From Propioniciclava sinopodophylli (lineage in GTDB: Bacteria > Actinomycetota > Actinomycetes > Propionibacteriales > Propionibacteriaceae): a stretch of DNA of 64,000 bases. Positions 2,879 to 18,671 of the stretch are shown in pieces; within the stretch, counting starts at the first letter, position 1, and every line of letters starts with the position of its first letter. Where the stretch lies: NCBI RefSeq assembly GCF_004324755.1, contig NZ_SDMQ01000011.1, forward strand, positions 1 through 64,000. Direction: 5' to 3'. Under the pieces are notes generated by a model. That model made no database searches, was not told where the DNA came from, and saw nothing but the letters and a program-made list of their open reading frames with translations. The position numbers and the translations under genes are program-made.

Positions 2879-3184
2879 GCCCTCGACGGGGACAAAGCAC
2901 AGACGAGGCTCTCCAGCGAAGCCCAACGCTCGCTACGGCCGGTCCAGACATCCGCCATTCGGCATCAAGCACGTGCGTGCGGTCACGACCGTTGACCTCG
3001 ACGTCCCCACATGGGCAGTTGAGTGAGATCACGACCATGAGGTGAGGGCTGTGGGTCATCGGGCTTCCGGGGGGCGTCCTCGGGACCGCCCGCCAAGCGG
3101 GTTGGTCATCAGCAGGCCCTCCTCACGGATTGTCAGACCAGCGGTGGAGTCTCTCGTCGGTAGGGTGGACTTCGGGAGGGTGAT
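2879..3184. other. gene-free stretch in the island
   Basis: About 300 bases without a convincing gene, promoter or terminator. Short frames on both strands do not resemble proteins I know. A purine-rich GGGAGGG at its end may serve as ribosome site for the methyltransferase stub that follows. Confidence 0.5.
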
Positions 3185-3319
3185 GTGACGATGGAGTTGG
3201 CTGGCGATTCCGCTGAGCTGCGGAAGGCGCGCGGCGCGTGCTTCACCCCCTCCGAGGTCACCCGCTTCCTGTGTGAGTGGGCGATCACGTCCCCCGAGCC
3301 GTCCCGCGGGCCGGAGTAG
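3185..3319 (+). pseudogene. N-terminal stub of an N-6 adenine DNA methyltransferase / restriction enzyme
   Basis: From GTG 3185 (or ATG 3191) the frame reads ELAGDSAELRKARGACFTP then SEVTRFLCEWAI and stops at TAG 3317-3319, only 42-44 residues in. The RKARGxxFTPxEVTRFLxxWAI pattern is how class I / Eco57I-like N-6 adenine methyltransferases begin, just before the SAM-binding motif. The rest of the gene (normally several hundred codons or more) is absent. Its partner would logically be a restriction gene, and a restriction-like gene follows 240 bases downstream, so the pair looks like a decayed defence locus. Confidence 0.65.
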
Positions 3320-3558
3320 GCTTCTCGGACGTGTAAGCCTGCTTCAGCAACCGGGCGGCCTTGAGCACCTCGACCGCCTCCGCGTCCCGGCCGACCACGA
3401 CCCGGCCCCATGAGCCGTCCGGCCTCGACTCCCGGCCGGCCAGGTGTCGACAGCGGGCCTTGACGAGCGCGGCACCGAGTACTGACCGGCCTCGGGGATG
3501 CTCCCTTCGCCTGCCTGCTCCACAGGGCAGGATGAACGAAGATTTCCGGAGGAGTGGC
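3320..3558. other. possible remnant between methyltransferase stub and DUF262 gene
   Basis: No intact gene. On the minus strand a frame reads VLGAALVKARCRHLAGR and continues with GRVVVGRDAEAVEVLKAARLL. Its composition is more like a real protein than like a shadow frame, so a fragment of an older gene may survive here. I cannot assign it. The last bases hold GGAGGAG (3548-3554), the ribosome site of the next gene. Confidence 0.3.
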
Positions 3559-6085
3559 ATGGTGAAGGCGAACGAGACCAACCTCGAGGGCATCCTCGAG
3601 GGGAAGCGGCAGTACCAGGTGCCGCTGTACCAGCGCGTGTACTCGTGGGGGCCCAAGCAGATCGACCAGTTGTGGGACGACCTGATCGAGATTGCCGAGG
3701 CACGTCGGGCCGGGGGGGGCGCCCACCCACTTCATCGGGTCGCTGGTACTGGCGGCCAGCCCCGACAACGGGGTGGTCGGCGTCCACAAGTTCCTGGTCG
3801 TCGACGGTCAGCAGCGGCTCACGACCTTGTCGATCCTGCTGGCCTCGATCCGCGATCATCTGTCAGAGTCCGACGGCCAGGAGCACCGCGACCGGATCGA
3901 TGCCCAGTACCTCGTGAACACGTACGAGGCCGGCAAGCCTCCCAAGCTGGTGCCGACGCAGGCCGACCGATCGGCGTACCTGGCGATCGTGCGTGCGAGC
4001 GCGGAGGCAGGTGGCGAGGACGCCGTGGGTGCGGCGTACCGTCGTTTCCGCGTGAAGCTGGCCGAGATCGACGATCCCGAGGATCCCCACGACATCGCGG
4101 CCATCGAGAACGCCGTGCTCCGTGGACTCGCCCTGGTCGCGGTGACAGCGGAGGCGGGCGACAACGCGCACCGGATCTTCGAGTCGCTCAACAACACCGG
4201 ACTGCGGCTCACCCAGTCGGATCTGCTGAAGAACCACCTGTTCATGCGTCTGGGTGATCGTGCGGAGGAGGTATACGAGGCGCTGTGGCGTCCCTTGGAG
4301 GACAAGCTCGGTTCGGAGAACCTGGAGTTGTTGTTCTGGCTGGATCTGGTGCAGAGCGACGAGAAGGCCAAGCAGTCGGACACCTACGTGGGGCAGCAAC
4401 GCCGATTCGACACGCTGACCACGCCGGCGGAGGTCGAGGCGGAGATCCGGCGAATCGCCAGGCTCGGCGACGTGCTGGCGACCATCCTCAAGCCCGAACG
4501 CGAGCAGAACCAGGCCCTACGGAAGCGGCTCGAACGCATTCGGGCCTGGGGGTCCACGACCGCGTACCCGATTGTGATGCAGGTGCTGGCGCAGCGGGCC
4601 GCTGGGCGCGTCCCGGACGAGAAGGTCATCGCGACGCTCAGCTATCTGGAGTCGTATTTCGTGCGCAGGATCGTGATCGGCCGGGCGACCGCCGGTTTGA
4701 ACCGGACGCTCTTGCAGGCGGTGGGCGCGATCAGCGGCGCGTCCGACGTCGAGGCGGCGTTGCGGGATAACCTGTCGGAGGGGCGCAAGCACTTCGCGAC
4801 GGACGCCCAGGTGCGAGAGTCCGTGACAACCGTTCCGTTCTACTGGCAGGGGCGGGCGTCCCAGAAGAAGCTCATCCTGCTGTGGCTCGAGGAGTCCCTG
4901 CGTCCGAAGGAGCCGGTCGATGCCAGGCAGCTCACCATCGAGCACGTGTTGCCGCAAACCCTGACGGACGCCGTGCGCACCGAGTTCGGCGCAACCTTGC
5001 CAGCAGAAGCGGAGGTGGCGTTCGAGCACGAGCGCCTGGTCCACACGCTGGGGAACCTCACGCTGACCGGGTACAACAGCGAGCTGAGCAACCGGCCGTT
5101 CTCGGACAAGCGCACGATGCTTGCCAAAAGCGGCGTGCGGATGAACCAGACGATCGCGGAGCATCCGACGTGGGGTGCCAGCGAGATCACCGATCGCGGG
5201 CAGGCATTGGCGGAGCGCATCATCGACCTGTGGCCTGGCCCCAACGAAAAGCTCGTTGGGGTCCGTGACCGGGAGACGGAACTGCGTGTGGACGTCGCCA
5301 CTGTGCTGGCGGGGATCCCGTCCGGGCGGTGGACCACCTATGGCGAAGTGGCGGTGGTGGTGGGCAGTCATCCTGTCCCGGTGGGATCCGCGATCGCGAA
5401 CCATCCGATGCCCAATCCGTGGCGAGTGCTGCAGTCGGGAGGAACCGTCTGGGCGCAGTTCCGCTGGACCGACCAGCACCGCACAGATGACCCTCGTGAC
5501 CTGCTCCGTGCGGAGGGGGTCGACGTCGACGTGGCGGGTCGTGCCGACCCGGAGCAGTTCATGGACGCCGTTGAACTGGCGGCCGGGATGGGGCTGGACA
5601 TCGATGCGTCCACCTTGAGGAGGCGCCGCCGTCGGCAGGCACGAAAGACAACCACGGATCCAACAGCTCTGGGCGTCCAGCAGGTCGCGTTCTGGGAGTC
5701 GGTGCAGGAGTGGGGCCGCCAGCATGCCACGCACGCTTCCTTTCACCGATCGCCAGGTCGCCGACACTGGTATCCCGTCCACCCCGCTGTGCTCACCCCG
5801 GGGGTGAACCTCGTCGTCAACACCACGAAGAGCAGGGTGTACGTGGAGGCGTACATCGAAGGAGGCAAGGACCAGTTCCACGCGCTGCACAACCAGAGGC
5901 AGGAAATAGAGCGCGACCTCGGCTACGCCGTGGAGTGGCGGGAGCAACCAGACAAGAAGGCCAGCCGCATCATCCATGAGCGCCCCGGTGACTTCCGGGA
6001 CCCGGAGCAGGCAGACCTGCTGGTGCAATGGCTCGTACGGACGGCCGATGACTTCGTTCGAGTCCTCCACGCACGCCACGCCTGA
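3559..6085 (+). pseudogene. GmrSD-like DUF262-DUF1524-alkyltransferase-like-DUF4268 protein, frameshifted
   Basis: From ATG 3559 (GGAGGAG 4 bases upstream) the frame shows the DUF262 opening QVPLYQRVYSW near residue 20 but breaks at a run of eight G (3712-3719). Removing one G restores a continuous 841-residue protein: THFIGS, the DUF262 core DGQQRLTTL near residue 80, the DUF1524 HNH-like IEHVLPQ near 458, an O6-alkylguanine-transferase-like DNA-binding module (GRWTTYGEVA to NHPMPNPWRVL, about nt 5283-5470), and a DUF4268-type C-terminus (about nt 5690-6075). DUF262/DUF1524 proteins are the GmrSD class of type IV, modification-dependent restriction enzymes. The alkyltransferase-like module lacks the catalytic PCHR cysteine, so it should bind rather than repair DNA. 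As written, translation starting at ATG 3692 would lose only the DUF262 N-terminus. The G tract may be a slippage site, a fixed mutation or a sequencing error. Confidence 0.8.
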
Positions 6086-12607: not shown

Positions 12608-13213
12608 TCAGCCCTCCTCGCGCCGTTGCCGCGCCCGCCGGGCGGCGCGGTGGGCCGCGACAGGACGCAGCAGCCAGCCCAGCAGCGCCGCGAAGGCACC
12701 CGCGGCCATGACGCGGAGCCCCACCATGTCCAGGGCCAGGCTCGCCCAGGCCATCGCCACGATGAGGCTGATCGACGTGATGAGGATGATGGCCAGCGGC
12801 AGGCCGGTGTACGCCGGGGGCTGCTCGCGCCGCTCCCGTTCCAGACGGGTGAGGCACTCGACCTCATACGGTGGCAACGACGGCGAGGCCAACAGCTCCT
12901 CCAGCCAGGCCACCTGCTCCGCGATGGGGGGACGGGCCATCCCCAGCACCTCCCCCGTACGGCACGCCTGCCAGACGCCGGCGTCCACGAACACGGGCAT
13001 GCCGGGGGCCCCGAGCGTGACCCCCCACGACAGGCGGTGCGACCAGATGCGCACCTCACCGATGTGCGTGCGGGCGCCGTACAGGCGGTCGCCCCAGCCG
13101 GGTGAGGTCATCTCCACCGGGTACCAGGCGTACCCGCGCTCGACCACCGCGCGGGCCAGGCGCCGCACCGGCTCGGGGGCGCGGGTCAAACCGTCGGGGA
13201 CGCCCGTGGTCAT
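12608..13213 (-). CDS. membrane protein coupled to the RHS gene, possible immunity or accessory factor
   Basis: 201 residues. ATG 13213 overlaps the RHS stop (ATGA), so the two genes are translationally coupled. The first 130 residues are soluble, rich in aromatic and basic residues (GYAWYPVEM, DRLYGARTHIG), with no motif I know. Residues 140-185 form two transmembrane helices (LAIILITSISLIVAMAWAS and a second), and the tail is very basic. In polymorphic-toxin loci the gene right after the RHS gene is commonly the immunity protein, and membrane forms exist. Because the RHS protein lacks an evident toxin domain, a role in anchoring or export is equally possible. Function not assigned. Confidence 0.7.
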   Translation of the reverse strand: MTTGVPDGLTRAPEPVRRLARAVVERGYAWYPVEMTSPGWGDRLYGARTHIGEVRIWSHRLSWGVTLGAPGMPVFVDAGVWQACRTGEVLGMARPPIAEQVAWLEELLASPSLPPYEVECLTRLERERREQPPAYTGLPLAIILITSISLIVAMAWASLALDMVGLRVMAAGAFAALLGWLLRPVAAHRAARRARQRREEG

Positions 13214-16200
13214 CCCGCACTCCCGGCCGGGACGAGCAGGCCACCCGGCGACGTGTCGAACCCCGGCGGGTCGTCGAACACGTAGAGCCCACCCGGCGTC
13301 TGGGACATCCCCGCGGGCGGCTCTGGGACCAGCAGCGACGGGGCGGGCGGCTCCAGCAGCAGCGGCGAGGGGGCCGGCGGCGCGGTCGGTGCCGTCGGGA
13401 CGGCCACGGGGGCCGTCGGGGTGACGGTCGGCGCCGGAGCGGTGACGACGGCCTCCGCGGCCTGGACCGCCGGGATGTCGGGCGCCTCGACCGCGGGAGC
13501 GGGCGCCGTGTTCGGCGTGTCGGGGCCACCGGAGTTGCCGAACACGTTGCTGGCCAGGTGGTCCACCCCACCGAAGACGCCGCCGAAGCCGACGCCCCAG
13601 AGGGCGGAGATGCCGATGTCCTGCCACGACGCCGGATCCCCGGTGATCCACCCGGTCAAGGCCGTCGACCCGGCGTTCGTCACGCCGCCGATGGCCGCAC
13701 CCGAACCCACGCGGGCCCACACGTTCCCGCCGAAAGATCCCGGGATGAGCCCGGTGACGGCGGACAGGCCCAACGACAGCGGGTCGAACGGCTCACCGGA
13801 GAAGGACTGCTGGATGAGGTCCGCGCCCATGCTGCCGACCGAGCCGATCAGCATGGTGGCGACCAGGGGGGCCGCCGGACCGGCGGCGATCGTCAAGGCC
13901 ACTGCTCCGGCCACGAGCAGGGCTCCCCCGACGAACATGGCCACGCTCTGCGCGTGCTGGGCGTCGTACGCCGTGATCCAGTCCGTGAGCTGCTGGTCGG
14001 TCAGCGGCGACAACCCGGTGGGGTCCAGGGCGTGGAGGGGGTTGTTGCCCGCGTAGCTGTACGGGTTTCCGCTCCAGCCGCTGCCGAAGACGGGGTCGAG
14101 CGGATCCCGGCTCAGGAAGCTGCGGGTGGCGGGATCGTGGACCCGCTTGCCCAGCCACTCCAGCCCGCCGAGCACCACCTCGCCAGCGGGACCCAGGGTC
14201 AGGCCGCCACCGAGGGCGTCCGCGCTGCCCGGTTCCCACGGGTCGGGGGCGTCGCCGCGCACGCCGCGCCACCCCGAGGGGAGCCACTGGTCGTGGCCGG
14301 CCACCGAGCCGGCCGCCCGCGTGACCGAATCCGAACCCACCTGGACGGGGGCTCCGGGCTGGCGTGCGGTGTCCCAGAAGACGTCGACGTCGTCGACCCG
14401 GGACAGCTCGCCAAGGGCGTCCACCAGCACCTCGCTGCGGCCCTGGGGGCCAGTGACCGAGGTGAGCCAGCCGAGGTCTCCCCAGGTGAACTCGATGCGC
14501 CCGTCGGGCCCGACCTCGCTGGTGCGGCGTCCGGCCCGGTCGTAGGTGTAGTGGGTGGCCACCCCGTCCGTCTCGCGCGTCGCCAGCTGCCCCGACGGCC
14601 CGTACGTGTAGGTGGTCGTCCGGCCCGCCGCGGTCTCGGCGACCAGGCGCCCCGCGGCGTCCCACGACCAGGTGTGCACGTCGTCGCCACTGCGGGCGGC
14701 GACGAGCTGTCCGGCCGCGTCGTGGGTGTACTCGGTGCGGACGCCGTCGCGCACGACCGCCGCCACCCGGCCGTCCTCGTCACGTTCGACCGTGGTGACG
14801 GCCTCGGCGCCCCTCGCGGTGCCGGTGTGTGAGACGACCAGGTTGCCCGTGTAGGCCCACTGCTGGGTACCGGCGGAGCTGGTCGCGGCGAGGACCCGCC
14901 CGGCGGCGTCCCGGCTGAACTCGAGGCGACCCGCGCCGTCCGCCTCGACCCAGGCCATCCGGCCAGCGGCGTCCCACCCGTAGGTGGTGCGCTCACCGTT
15001 GGGGCGCGTCATCGAGGAGCAGCGGCCGAGCACGTCGTAGGTCCACCGGACCGCGTGGGCGTCGCGGGCGCGCTCGACCAGACGACCCCGGGCGTCCCAC
15101 CGCAGGCGGTGGGTGACCCGGGCGCCCGGATCCTTGTCGTCGAGGACGGTCAGGGTGCGGGACTCCCCGTCGCGCCGGAACGCGGCGACGGTCCGGCCCG
15201 GTGACCCCAGGGTGGCCAGCGTCCCGTCGGGCGCGTACCCGTACTCGACGCGCTCCCCCGTCGCCAGCACGTTGGCGACCACGCGGCCGGCGGCGTCGTA
15301 CTCGGCACTGGCGGTGTTCCCCTCCGGGTCGGTCTGCGAGGTGCAGCGCCCGGCGGCGTTGAACGTGTGTGTCCACGTCGCTCCGTCGGGGTGGGTGATC
15401 CCCACCGTCCGTCCGAGCGCGTCATGGGTGAAGCGGGTGACCCCCCCGAGGGCGTTCGTGGCCGTGGCGACCTGCCCGGCTGCGTCGTAGGTGAAGCGGC
15501 GCAGTCCCCACATCCGGTCGCGCATCGCGACGACGCGCCCCGCGAGGTCATAGGTCCACCGGCGGGCGCCCTCGCCCGGGGCCTGGATGCTGGTCACCCT
15601 GCGGCAGGCGTCGTAGGTGTAGCGCGTCATGGCGCCGATGGGGTCGACCTCTTCGGTGGGGCGCCCGTCCGCGTCGTACACGAAGCGGTGCGTGGCCCCA
15701 TCGGGCAGCGTCGTCGACGCGAGGCGTCCGGCCCCGTCGTAGGTGTAGCGGGTCACGGAGCCGTCCGGACGGCGCAGCGTCGTCGGCCGACCCGCCGCGT
15801 CGCGCTCCAGGGCGGTCAGGGAGCCGTCCGGCCCCAGGAATTCGATCGGGAGTCCGCGCAGGTCGTACCGGGTCAGGTAGGAACCGAAGCCGGCCCTCGA
15901 GAAGGACTCGATGCGCCCGATGCGATCGGTGACCAGCAGGTCGTCCGGCCGGGAACCGCCGGGGTGTGCGGTGGCCAGGGCGCGGCGGTCGACGCTGCGG
16001 TCGAGGCTGGTCGCCACACCGGTGGGGTCCGTCGCCCGGGTCACCTGGCCGTTGACGTCGTGCTCCCACGACCACTGGTGCCCCTCGGGGTCGGTGACGG
16101 CCACGAGCCGCGACAGCGCGTCGTGGGTGTACTGCCAGGTGGATCCGTCCGGAAGGCGCAGGGCGGCGAGGTTGCCGATGTCGTCGACCGCCTGGGTCGT

Positions 16201-18492
16201 GCGGCGGCCCAGCGGGTCGGTCGTGGTGATGGCGCGCGGGTCGTGCTCGATGACCGTGCGGGCACCGTAGGGGTCGATGGAGGCGACCATCCGACCGCCC
16301 ACGCTGTACTCGAACCGCCACACCGCGCCGTCCGGGTCGCGGCGCTCGACCAGGTTCTCCCCCTCGTGGACGAACTCGGTGCGATGCCCCAGGGGCGTGA
16401 CCGTGGCGGTGACCCTTCCCCCGGCGTCCCGCTCGATGACGGACCGGTTCCCCTCGCCGTCGACGAGCGCGACCACGTCGCCGTGATCGTCGTACTCCAG
16501 CGCGATCTCGCGGCCGGTGGGGTCGGTGATGCCCACCACCGACTGGCCGTCCCACCGCAGCTGAGTGACGTTCCCCTCACCGTCCCGGACGGCGGTCGGC
16601 GTCCGGTCGTCCCCCTCGTAGGTGTACTCGACCGTGGCGACGGCCTCGCCGTTCTCGAGGGTGAGCGCGACGAGCCGGTCGTGGGCGTCCCACGTGTGGT
16701 CGGTGCGGGCGCCCGTCGGGGAGACGCGGGCGGTCAGGCGCGAACGCTCGTCGTACCCCAGCAGGGTGGTGGAGCCGTCCCGCTCGGTGAACATCACGGG
16801 GTGGCCGTACTTGTCCCAGGCCGTCGACTGGCGCTCGCCGTGGGCGTCCACCACGCCGACCAGGCGGGCGTGCTGGTCGTGGATCCACGTGTTGGCGCGC
16901 GTGCCGTCGGGATCCTCGACGACCGTCACGCGCCCGGGCAGGTAGCGGTACCGGGATTCGCGACCGTGGGCGGAGACCTGGCTCGTCACCCGGCCGGTCG
17001 CATCGTAGGTGTTGGTGGCCTCATGGACGCCGTCGGCGTCCGTCACCTGGTCGAGCAGGCCCGCGGCGTCCCACCGGTAGCGTCGCGTCCCGGTCCCGGT
17101 CGTCACCGCGACGAGGCGGCCGGACTGGTCGTACGCGTAGCGGACGCCTCGGCCGTCGGAGGCCCGCAGTTCGACCACGCGGTCGGCTTCCCACACCAGC
17201 TCGATGCCCCGGCCGCGCTCGTGCGAGAGCCCCTGGAGGCGCCCGCCGCCCCAGTCGAGACGAACCGTCGTGCCCGCCCCGCGGTGCAGGGCCGTGAGCT
17301 GCCCGGCCGCGTCGAACTCCCAGGTGCCGCCGCCGTTGTCGGTGATGCGGTACCCGTCGCCCTCGCGACCGAGCCAGTACGCCTCGACGGTCGCCCGGTC
17401 CCAGGCCTCGCCCAGGCGGGGGAACACGACCAGGCGGCCGTCCTGCCGCGTCCACCGGGCCTGCTCGTCGGTGAAGGCCAGCCGGGTCTCGGTCCAGGAC
17501 GACCATCCCGGGCCGAAGGCACCCACCCGGTCGTCCAAAGAGTTGTAGAGGCGGGTGAAAGCCAGGGTGGCCGCGCCGCCGGTGAAGCGCAGGTCGATCT
17601 CGGGCTCGACGAAGTTGCCTGTTGCGGCGTTGACGGGGTCGTCGGCGTACCCCGAGTTCGGCACGATGCCGTAGGCCTGCGGCCTCGTGATGACCAGGTC
17701 GTCACGGGTGGCGGCGACCCCGTTGGCCTGGAGGGCCGCCGTGATGCTCGCGTTGGGGATCGTCACGACGCCCTCGCCCCCGGCCTCCTCGAAGGCCGCG
17801 GCGACGGTGTTCGCCCAGAAGACGTCCTGCCCGTTGGCGGTGAGGTAGTTGTCGAAGGCCGTGAAGACGCCGGCGGCGCTGAGGGTTCCCCACCCGCACC
17901 CGCTGACGAAGTCGTCGTAGTGGCCGCGCAGGGTGCCCGGACGCCACGCGAGGGCATCGTTCGCGCCCTCGGAGTTGGAGGCGAAGGTGCGCAGGTGGGC
18001 CGGGCGGGCCGACGAGGTGCCCGATCCGCCCGAGCCGGTGAGAGGGTCGCGCGCCGGGGCAGGCGGGGTCGGGACGGACTGCGGCTCCTCGGGGTCCGGC
18101 GGCCCGAACGGCGGGCGCTCGCCGCCGGTGAAGAAGTCGACGATGTGCTCGCCCAGGTGGCGGTCCTCCTGGCGCTGCTTCCACTCGCGCGCGACCACCC
18201 GCCGCTCCTGCTCCTTGGTGGCGCACTCGGCCATGTAGTCGACCTTGGTGGCGACCTCGCGCAGGGCCGTGGCCAGGCGCTCGGCGTCCCCCGCCTGCGT
18301 CGTCCCATTCTGCTGGAACAGCTGGGAGTAGTAGCCGACGAAGTCGACCATGCCGTGGCTCACCCACGACGACCGAGACCCCGCCTGGCCATCGATCGCG
18401 TCGGCGGCGTTGCGACAGGAACGTGCGAGCGACTGCGCCGCCGAGTGGTCGAAGCGAACATCCGACTCGATGCCGTGCAGGGGGTCGACCAT
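13210..18492 (-). CDS. very large RHS/YD-repeat protein with WXG100-like N-terminus
   Basis: 1760 residues from ATG 18492 (AGAGGA upstream). Residues 1-120 form a helical WXG100-like region with an SWVSHGM turn, as in actinobacterial type VII substrates. A proline-rich linker (about 155-180) leads to a DUF6531-type start near residue 310 (DPVNAATGNF, then FTRLYNS and FGPGW). From about 400 to 1500 there are dozens of YD/RHS repeats (YTYDGAGRL, WDAAGRL, YAPDG), followed by the RHS core end NPYSYAGNNPLHALDPTG. After the core come glycine/alanine-rich hydrophobic helices of the pretoxin type, then about 110 proline/alanine-rich residues ending LLVPAGSAG. No nuclease, deaminase or other toxin fold is recognisable at the C-terminus, which is unusual. 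RHS shells normally enclose a cleaved toxin. The locus splits the conserved gyrB-dciA neighbourhood. Confidence 0.92.
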   Translation of the reverse strand: MVDPLHGIESDVRFDHSAAQSLARSCRNAADAIDGQAGSRSSWVSHGMVDFVGYYSQLFQQNGTTQAGDAERLATALREVATKVDYMAECATKEQERRVVAREWKQRQEDRHLGEHIVDFFTGGERPPFGPPDPEEPQSVPTPPAPARDPLTGSGGSGTSSARPAHLRTFASNSEGANDALAWRPGTLRGHYDDFVSGCGWGTLSAAGVFTAFDNYLTANGQDVFWANTVAAAFEEAGGEGVVTIPNASITAALQANGVAATRDDLVITRPQAYGIVPNSGYADDPVNAATGNFVEPEIDLRFTGGAATLAFTRLYNSLDDRVGAFGPGWSSWTETRLAFTDEQARWTRQDGRLVVFPRLGEAWDRATVEAYWLGREGDGYRITDNGGGTWEFDAAGQLTALHRGAGTTVRLDWGGGRLQGLSHERGRGIELVWEADRVVELRASDGRGVRYAYDQSGRLVAVTTGTGTRRYRWDAAGLLDQVTDADGVHEATNTYDATGRVTSQVSAHGRESRYRYLPGRVTVVEDPDGTRANTWIHDQHARLVGVVDAHGERQSTAWDKYGHPVMFTERDGSTTLLGYDERSRLTARVSPTGARTDHTWDAHDRLVALTLENGEAVATVEYTYEGDDRTPTAVRDGEGNVTQLRWDGQSVVGITDPTGREIALEYDDHGDVVALVDGEGNRSVIERDAGGRVTATVTPLGHRTEFVHEGENLVERRDPDGAVWRFEYSVGGRMVASIDPYGARTVIEHDPRAITTTDPLGRRTTQAVDDIGNLAALRLPDGSTWQYTHDALSRLVAVTDPEGHQWSWEHDVNGQVTRATDPTGVATSLDRSVDRRALATAHPGGSRPDDLLVTDRIGRIESFSRAGFGSYLTRYDLRGLPIEFLGPDGSLTALERDAAGRPTTLRRPDGSVTRYTYDGAGRLASTTLPDGATHRFVYDADGRPTEEVDPIGAMTRYTYDACRRVTSIQAPGEGARRWTYDLAGRVVAMRDRMWGLRRFTYDAAGQVATATNALGGVTRFTHDALGRTVGITHPDGATWTHTFNAAGRCTSQTDPEGNTASAEYDAAGRVVANVLATGERVEYGYAPDGTLATLGSPGRTVAAFRRDGESRTLTVLDDKDPGARVTHRLRWDARGRLVERARDAHAVRWTYDVLGRCSSMTRPNGERTTYGWDAAGRMAWVEADGAGRLEFSRDAAGRVLAATSSAGTQQWAYTGNLVVSHTGTARGAEAVTTVERDEDGRVAAVVRDGVRTEYTHDAAGQLVAARSGDDVHTWSWDAAGRLVAETAAGRTTTYTYGPSGQLATRETDGVATHYTYDRAGRRTSEVGPDGRIEFTWGDLGWLTSVTGPQGRSEVLVDALGELSRVDDVDVFWDTARQPGAPVQVGSDSVTRAAGSVAGHDQWLPSGWRGVRGDAPDPWEPGSADALGGGLTLGPAGEVVLGGLEWLGKRVHDPATRSFLSRDPLDPVFGSGWSGNPYSYAGNNPLHALDPTGLSPLTDQQLTDWITAYDAQHAQSVAMFVGGALLVAGAVALTIAAGPAAPLVATMLIGSVGSMGADLIQQSFSGEPFDPLSLGLSAVTGLIPGSFGGNVWARVGSGAAIGGVTNAGSTALTGWITGDPASWQDIGISALWGVGFGGVFGGVDHLASNVFGNSGGPDTPNTAPAPAVEAPDIPAVQAAEAVVTAPAPTVTPTAPVAVPTAPTAPPAPSPLLLEPPAPSLLVPEPPAGMSQTPGGLYVFDDPPGFDTSPGGLLVPAGSAG

Positions 18493-18671
18493 CGTGATGA
18501 GGTCCTCTCGGGGGTGGGACTCCGACGCTAGCAGCCGAGGTGTCGATCCTCCTTGTCGGGAGGTGGGGAGCACTCCCCGCACGGCAGAAGGGGCACACCG
18601 CAGGCCGCGACGCTGGGCAACATGACCGATTCTTGAGCGCACCTGCTGATGGGCGTGCAAGGGTCGGGGGC

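Follow-up and report, generated by a model that had tools for sequence, protein, structure and literature searches.

The GmrSD-type gene at positions 3559-6085 of the window, i.e., of the 64,000-nucleotide stretch of Propioniciclava sinopodophylli DNA that was analyzed, probably specifies a single-chain modification-dependent restriction enzyme of the GmrSD family with a DNA-reader module of the alkyltransferase (AGT) fold. Judged from alignments and a tree, the module appears to belong to a distinct Cys-less subfamily of that fold, and not to the alkyltransferase-like proteins (ATLs). The fusion is real and more general than the sequence-only reading of the window could see, and it is probably best read as a DNA-reading module exchanged among type IV enzymes.

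The gene does not lie in a single open reading frame, a point that the sequence-only reading overlooked. It occupies two frames, frame 1 up to position 3720 and frame 2 over 3692-6085, and the break falls in a run of eight G residues (Table 1), with the continuation starting at about 3720. Because the frame is uninterrupted at this site in the orthologues of genome G001 (94%) and of Propioniciclava soli (89%, L034), the window copy carries either a frameshift, which would be recent, or a homopolymer sequencing error. GmrSD_N and GmrSD_C are found in one protein, divided over two frames in the window and contained in one frame in L034; the names given to its DGQQR and HNH-type motifs are our assumption. 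The domain order that had been read from the letters, with a module between DUF1524 and DUF4268, is borne out by Pfam, which gives GmrSD_N, GmrSD_C, DNA_binding_1 and DUF4268 in series. Likewise, the two motifs that had been singled out, GRWTTYGEVA (from residue 545 of the window protein, P0001) and NHPMPNPWRVL, are both in the protein, and the acceptor cysteine is missing as claimed, with proline P576 where the genome's own Ogt (PCHR, L002) has Cys. The best PADLOC match of the protein was Orf5 PDLC02693 (392 bits); the DUF4268 part of the protein matched PDC-S11, and NCBIfam gave no match for the protein.

Table 1. Features of the GmrSD-type gene in the window and the evidence for each.
Feature	Position	Strand	Evidence
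Gene start, first ~54 codons, beginning of GmrSD_N	3559..3720	+	PF03235 positions 1-36, E 2.3e-9
G8 run, frame break, open in orthologues	3712..3719	+	Open reading frames and orthologue comparison
Remainder of GmrSD_N (DUF262), DGQQR motif	3725..4243	+	PF03235 positions 40-199, E 7.1e-21
GmrSD_C (former DUF1524, HNH-type), EHVLPQ and GNLTLT..N motifs	4799..5215	+	PF07510, E 4.1e-23; same place in the PF07510 search of class genomes
Predicted Cys-less AGT-fold module, restriction-associated type (GRWTTYGEVA ... NPWRVL ... FRWTD ... EGV)	5273..5587	+	PF01035 and profile A2
DNA_binding_1 (PF01035) match in module	5288-5521	+	E 2.3e-7, 31.0 bits (cut-off 27)
Family profile A2 match (A2 includes the window sequence)	5273-5578	+	Profile search
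Codon at the AGT catalytic cysteine position, Pro (P576 of P0001)	5417..5419	+	Alignment, position checked
DUF4268, C-terminal domain	5681..6067	+	PF14088, E 1.7e-14; model resembles YbjN/type III chaperones

To characterize the fold, a profile of 21 modules, the window's included (profile A2), was compared with the PDB. The best matches were Atl1 (3gva, E 6.9e-11) and 2kif (E 3.4e-10), followed by AGTs at 1.7e-6 and weaker, and each of the 21 distinct sequences matched at E values up to 0.01 is named as an AGT/methyltransferase or an ATL. The PDB name of 2kif is O6-methylguanine-DNA methyltransferase; we take it to be the Vibrio ATL. On its own, the window protein matched 2kif at 4.8e-4 and 3gva at 0.0093, and hhalign of the module gave 99.0% against an AGT and 99.1% against an ATL alignment (five rows each). 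The P. soli orthologue, whose module spans about residues 839-960 of the L034 open frame, scores 33.2 bits with PF01035, and a chance match to this family is ruled out by a score above the curated cut-off together with conservation in orthologues. Among 13 of the 30 strong family matches described below, on which Pfam was run, PF01035 was over its cut-off in three, at it in one (L142), and under it or unmatched in nine; the module of L119 has no Pfam match at 0.001. AlphaFold2, given the module alone with a two-sequence alignment, returned a mean pLDDT of 39.6; block means on the module were 23-53, and 23-45 in the run of module plus DUF4268, with two sequences each. As predicted by these profile comparisons, assignment of the module to the MGMT/Atl1 (AGT) fold is well supported.

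The position of the family was assessed with a tree of 80 rows and 106 columns, which has many unresolved forks and a long-branch warning (L127 with the McrB rows), and which includes the 94% orthologue (L084) while the rows of the window and of P. soli stand outside it. The AGT and ATL rows form one group (100/99) without any GxW module inside, and the ATL rows form one group as well (97/79). The split that separates the fused modules is weak (81/91) and leaves one GmrSD protein (L074), together with six small ones, on the side of the AGTs and ATLs; for this reason a single origin of the fused modules is not established. Four small proteins (L050, L069, L071, L119), with FPNPHRV-like motifs and GxW, form a branch of their own (100/97); in two of them a TrmB or IclR winged helix is matched weakly at the N-terminus, with scores below cut-off.

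The compared rows comprise 12 AGT, 15 ATL, 44 fused and 9 small free proteins, and the independent rows are fewer than these 80 because L083_19260 repeats L084, L083_2328 is a broken G001 copy, and L145 is nearly identical to L140. Tree and residue counts leave out L001, L003-L017, L024-L045 (that of P. soli, L034, too), L086-L115 and pieces shorter than 75 residues; the omitted loci were chosen by the analyst, and later loci duplicate most of them. Domain content, and not a motif, decided which rows count as fused. For AGT and ATL rows the criterion was a CHR or W[H/W/Q]R motif, so the Cys or Trp at their acceptor column is there by construction, as is the fact that none of the 9 small free rows has Cys. 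The column of the AGT cysteine is occupied in the fused rows by Ala (31), Trp (5), Pro (3), His (2), Arg (2) or Ser (1), and in no case by Cys; across all 53 relatives the counts are Ala 36, Pro 7, Trp 5, His 2, Arg 2 and Ser 1. An active alkyltransferase is ruled out by the lack of Cys, the window having Pro and the fused relatives 0/44. A gapped hhalign alignment in which the window Trp falls on the ATL Trp was not accepted, since the NAWRV and NPHRV relatives align ungapped.

Other columns also set the modules apart. The arginine finger is Arg in 27/27 AGT/ATL rows (15/15 ATL), in only 2 of the 44 fused rows and in 4 of the 9 small ones; across the 53 relatives this column holds Gln in 22, Val in 14 and Arg in 6, and the window has Val. 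The Trp of the GxW motif is found in 43/43 ungapped fused rows and 9/9 small rows versus 0/27 AGT/ATL rows, in all 27 of which the residue after G-x is Val or Thr. The base-flipping Tyr (Y550 of P0001 in the window) is retained in 36 of 43 ungapped fused rows and lost in seven, and the Arg of xRV is present in 44/44. The motif F-x-W occurs in 33/44 fused rows and F-x-W-x-D in 27/44, with only 4/12 McrB rows; the window has F-x-W, and none of the 27 AGT/ATL rows has F-x-W-x-D. Loops of the fused modules are variable in the alignment. The five fused rows with Trp at the cysteine column are all McrB: L123, L124, L125, L126 and L137 form a divergent branch in which this Trp (EGWHRV, EGWFRV) is as in ATLs and in which the Tyr and the arginine finger are both gone. 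As for the window module itself, it shares with ATLs the absence of Cys and the presence of the Tyr, but it does not share their arginine finger, and its 94% orthologue L084 stands outside their group in the tree.

The distribution of the family was examined with profiles A1 and A2, which were built from GxW modules and therefore favor GxW relatives, in searches covering Actinomycetota genomes. Among 394 Actinomycetes genomes, A2 found matches of at least 68 bits in at least 30, the window's included, the next match being at 54.6; 30/394 is a lower bound because the 12 best first-look candidates were scored in most genomes. The 30 strong matches comprise 19 GmrSD proteins (three with RAMA, and two with DUF4268, of which the window's is one), five with a probable PD-(D/E)XK N-terminus, two McrB, one possible Mrr_N protein, and three small or broken ones, chassis being assigned by Pfam for 13 of the 30 and by home-made profiles for the others. 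The Mrr_N-like start of the possible Mrr_N protein (L138) was matched by a home-made profile only, with none by Pfam at 0.01. Nine A2 matches below 55 bits, picked for their long open frames, were six McrB, one GmrSD and two ordinary ATLs. In 396 genomes of the phylum, A1 gave 12 matches above 50 bits in 11 genomes, among the best first-look candidates scored: six GmrSD (three with RAMA) and six small, cut or doubtful frames in which no chassis was found. PF07510 matched 323 of the 394 class genomes, many of the matches lying in short frames, and we therefore give no share of GmrSD proteins carrying the module.

Across all searches, six GmrSD proteins have both the module and RAMA (L065, L066, L067, L076 and L077 by Pfam; L130 by a home-made profile), and in McrB the module co-occurs with Mrr_N; RAMA and Mrr_N are themselves suspected readers. 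The fused McrB proteins have Mrr_N and AAA_5, with the Cys-less module between Mrr_N and the rest, and McrC (PF10117) adjoins them in 3/3 loci tested. The module stands at two kinds of chain position across the chassis. The probable PD-(D/E)XK proteins (L131, L134, L135, L139, L141) are 450-520 aa long with a Cys-less AGT-like C-terminus. All five keep an RLD...LVVxELKR pattern, three have weak NucS_C matches (E 3e-4 to 5e-3, all below cut-off), and PDB searches gave weak matches to helicase-nucleases and NucS/EndoMS (E 0.001 to 0.05). The family looks like a compact modification-dependent nuclease.

By tblastn (E 0.01), a method weak for short divergent domains, none of 50,697 phage records yielded the module; among 72,556 plasmids, searched by the same method, a single one did, from Streptomyces. 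Three profile scans of viral contigs gave 23, 21 and 88 pattern matches and no module relative, and a DNA pattern scan of viral contigs gave no AGT-like open frame (E 1e-3, home-made profile) among the 120 matches listed. A GmrSD fusion that can be named is the plasmid protein WP_331726105.1 of Streptomyces sp. NBC_01012 (L085), whose stretch also carries a Cse1/CasA gene, an integrase and Tn3 genes, its other neighbors being without a telling family. The genomic context of the fused genes is mixed. L076 has an MTES_1575 helicase-nuclease gene and an HNH gene as neighbors; L142 has a ResIII/PLD helicase but also a histidine kinase, and L066 a NERD gene but also an ABC transporter; next to L065 is a formaldehyde-activating enzyme.

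The window gene itself is flanked by MerR and pyridine-nucleotide oxidoreductase genes on one side and, on the other, by a CDP-alcohol phosphatidyltransferase gene and then what we take to be gyrA; no defense genes were found among the four neighbors scanned. Beyond the gyrase genes, at 13210-18660 on the minus strand, lies the gene of a 1816-aa protein, presumably of the RHS/YD-repeat type. The P. soli orthologue is preceded by genes that are HsdR-like (EcoEI_R_C, 4.3e-15), HsdM-like (N6_Mtase, 1.7e-60) and, by a weak match, HsdS-like (Methylase_S, 4.9e-5); on its opposite side lies the gene of a phage integrase (2.8e-15). In G001 the gene is present twice, the copies being about 15 kb from each other (L083, G001:C1:26001-46000). 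The second copy, whose downstream flank matches the gyrA flank of the window, is missing the start of the gene and is split within a few codons of the module start by an insert of ~950 bases (L083, about 3132-4081), which has transposase-like open frames and which we label a transposase by assumption. The window genome also encodes an ordinary Ogt (PCHR; G000:C40:94803-95042, L002) and a separate ATL-like gene (PWWR; G000:C11:398220-398393, L003), and the fused module is therefore a third paralogue. All parts of the gene are under purifying selection: among the window, G001 and P. soli, dN/dS, by simple counting on few changes, was 0.09-0.14 for the module, 0.05-0.07 for GmrSD_N, 0.06-0.09 for GmrSD_C and 0.16-0.19 for DUF4268.

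Concerning DUF4268, its half of the AlphaFold2 model has block pLDDT values of 63-89 over the last 89 residues and is similar to YbjN and to chaperones of type III secretion (Foldseek 2.3e-4; best Z 8.4, rmsd 3.5, 126 aligned); lower down is the T4 MotA DNA-binding domain (Z 6.3, rmsd 3.4, 102 aligned), and Z scores of 7-8 can be background in such matches. The Foldseek and VIA-align lists for this model (m3cbb43ff2946) concern the DUF4268 half, and the lack of an AGT chain among the rows listed there has no bearing on the module. As far as this predicted likeness to YbjN and type III chaperones goes, DUF4268 is ruled out as a nuclease.

In the mechanism that we propose, GmrSD_N and the HNH-type GmrSD_C would form an NTPase/nuclease chassis, and DUF4268 is perhaps a protein-interaction domain. 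The module, whose missing cysteine precludes alkyl transfer, would dock on DNA via its AGT-type helix-turn-helix and probe a base or lesion with a remodeled pocket. We infer that this pocket contains the GxW Trp, the mostly conserved Tyr and the Arg of xRV, and, in the window and in most fused relatives outside McrB, the F-x-W motif as well. Reading by the module would then license cleavage by the nuclease. On this view the locus encodes, or in the window strain once encoded, such an enzyme.

For a reader role speak the different nuclease systems and chain positions in which the module is found, the adjoining RAMA and Mrr_N, and conserved residues of its own. Against it, the arginine finger is lost in 42/44 fused rows and the Tyr in 7/43, as might be expected of a domain that has given up base flipping; half of the stronger phylum-sample matches (6/12) came without a restriction chassis found; the window copy is frameshifted, and the second G001 copy truncated and interrupted; some neighbors are ordinary, those in the window included; and many relatives fall under the PF01035 cut-off, with a low pLDDT for the module.

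Three other explanations must be weighed against a reader of its own kind. A true ATL-type domain would flip O6-alkylguanine into its pocket and make the GmrSD enzyme cut alkylated DNA. Atl1 is the best PDB match of the family profile at 6.9e-11, the window protein alone matches 2kif (4.8e-4) and 3gva (0.0093), the Tyr is kept with no Cys, and five McrB rows have the ATL-like Trp; yet zero fused modules fall within the ATL+AGT group (100/99), Ala or Pro stands at the Cys position in 34/44 fused rows, and the arginine finger is Val in the window and Arg in 2/44 fused versus 27/27 AGT/ATL rows. This explanation therefore seems to us quite improbable, and the claim of the sequence-only reading that the module is an ATL binding altered guanine is not supported as it stands, given the same grouping and the same Val. 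What stands of that reading is a Cys-less AGT-family module inside a GmrSD-type enzyme, ATL membership being too specific. Its suggestion of a modified-base reader likewise remains plausible, given that enzymes of the McrBC type and probable PD-(D/E)XK enzymes have related modules too.

It is also conceivable, though unlikely in our view, that a worn-down AGT domain was kept only for unspecific DNA docking, with specificity residing in GmrSD itself. Loss of the Cys and the arginine finger, variable loops, and the non-specific contacts of the AGT helix-turn-helix (PMC10779285) are consistent with this, but the GxW Trp, present in 43/43 ungapped fused rows and absent from AGT/ATL rows, argues for a specific role, as do F-x-W-x-D (27/44 fused versus 0/27) and a module dN/dS of 0.09-0.14. 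ATLs bind UvrA/UvrC (PMC10779285), DUF4268 with its chaperone-like model adjoins the module, and small free-standing relatives exist, all of which would suit a module for protein-protein docking (as ATL on UvrA), or a switch against self-damage, instead of a base reader. However, the recurrence of the module in several chassis that have different partners, and its two kinds of chain position, fit DNA better than one protein partner, and we give this last explanation little credence.

As to what a DNA reader would recognize, O6-alkylguanine is a repair lesion, and we know of no phage that has it as a regular base; it is not a favored ligand. Actinophages do contain modified guanines, an example being mycobacteriophage Rosebush, with dPreQ0 in place of about 28% of G (PMC6884629). 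A modified guanine of the 7-deazaguanine type is accordingly named here as a candidate ligand, not as a result. Going further, we tentatively entertain, as a possibility we would not bet on, that an unnamed family of Cys-less AGT-fold readers, with a Trp/F-x-W pocket of its own and in most cases lacking the arginine finger, has moved between three unrelated actinobacterial type IV chassis (GmrSD, McrBC and PD-(D/E)XK) and recognizes a phage DNA modification, perhaps a 7-deazaguanine-like purine, by base probing unlike that of AGTs and ATLs. To our knowledge, the GmrSD enzyme BrxU does not carry an AGT-fold module; should this hold, the main reading need not fall to the module. Cleavage by BrxU extends to a wide variety of cytosine modifications (PMC12409352).

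What largely defines a type IV restriction enzyme is the modified base that it reads, and the readers of these enzymes are poorly known. If the proposal is true, a repair-protein fold serving as a portable reader in unrelated chassis would add a class of reader, would exemplify the recruitment of repair domains into defense, and would point to a small set of candidate enzymes for those modifications, modified guanines among them, that have few known restriction readers. Surprise is limited, as the bare fusion of GmrSD with DNA_binding_1 has been in print since 2015 (PMC4619093). What appears to be new, from the sequence comparisons, is that the fused module belongs to a distinct Cys-less subfamily that recurs in several restriction chassis. 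Among open-licence papers, none was found on the wider family, and none that links alkyltransferase-like proteins with DUF262, or McrBC with an MGMT domain. AGT terms are absent from the main text of the CoCoNuTs paper, a census of McrBC (PMC11090510), the searched terms are absent from the main texts of PMC7641849 and PMC12373910, and 'restriction' is absent from that of a 2023 review of AGTs and ATLs (PMC10779285).

Compared with known systems, the window protein has in common with GmrSD, Eco94GmrSD and BrxU the GmrSD_N and GmrSD_C domains with their DGQQR and HNH-type motifs, and differs from them in its extra C-terminal AGT-fold module and DUF4268. Machnicka et al. (2015) describe PF01035, DUF4268 and DUF4357 as added domains of GmrSD, with PF01035 in several homologues, mainly from Streptomyces (PMC4619093). 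Those fusions are of the same kind as that in the window, and the consulted sections of that paper do not mention the loss of Cys, the GxW motif, or occurrence in McrB and PD-(D/E)XK proteins. ATLs such as Atl1 and E. coli ATL, the closest PDB profile match, have a Cys-less AGT DNA-binding domain like the window module; the arginine finger is conserved in AGTs and ATLs, and most ATLs combine it with Trp at the Cys position (PMC10779285), whereas the window module has Pro and Val. The archaeal AGT-EndoV and ATL-EndoV proteins join an AGT-fold domain to an endonuclease (PMC10779285), as here, but EndoV is a repair nuclease and the nuclease here is of restriction type. Finally, the fused McrB loci share Mrr_N, AAA_5 and a neighboring McrC with McrBC systems, and it is the Cys-less module that distinguishes them.
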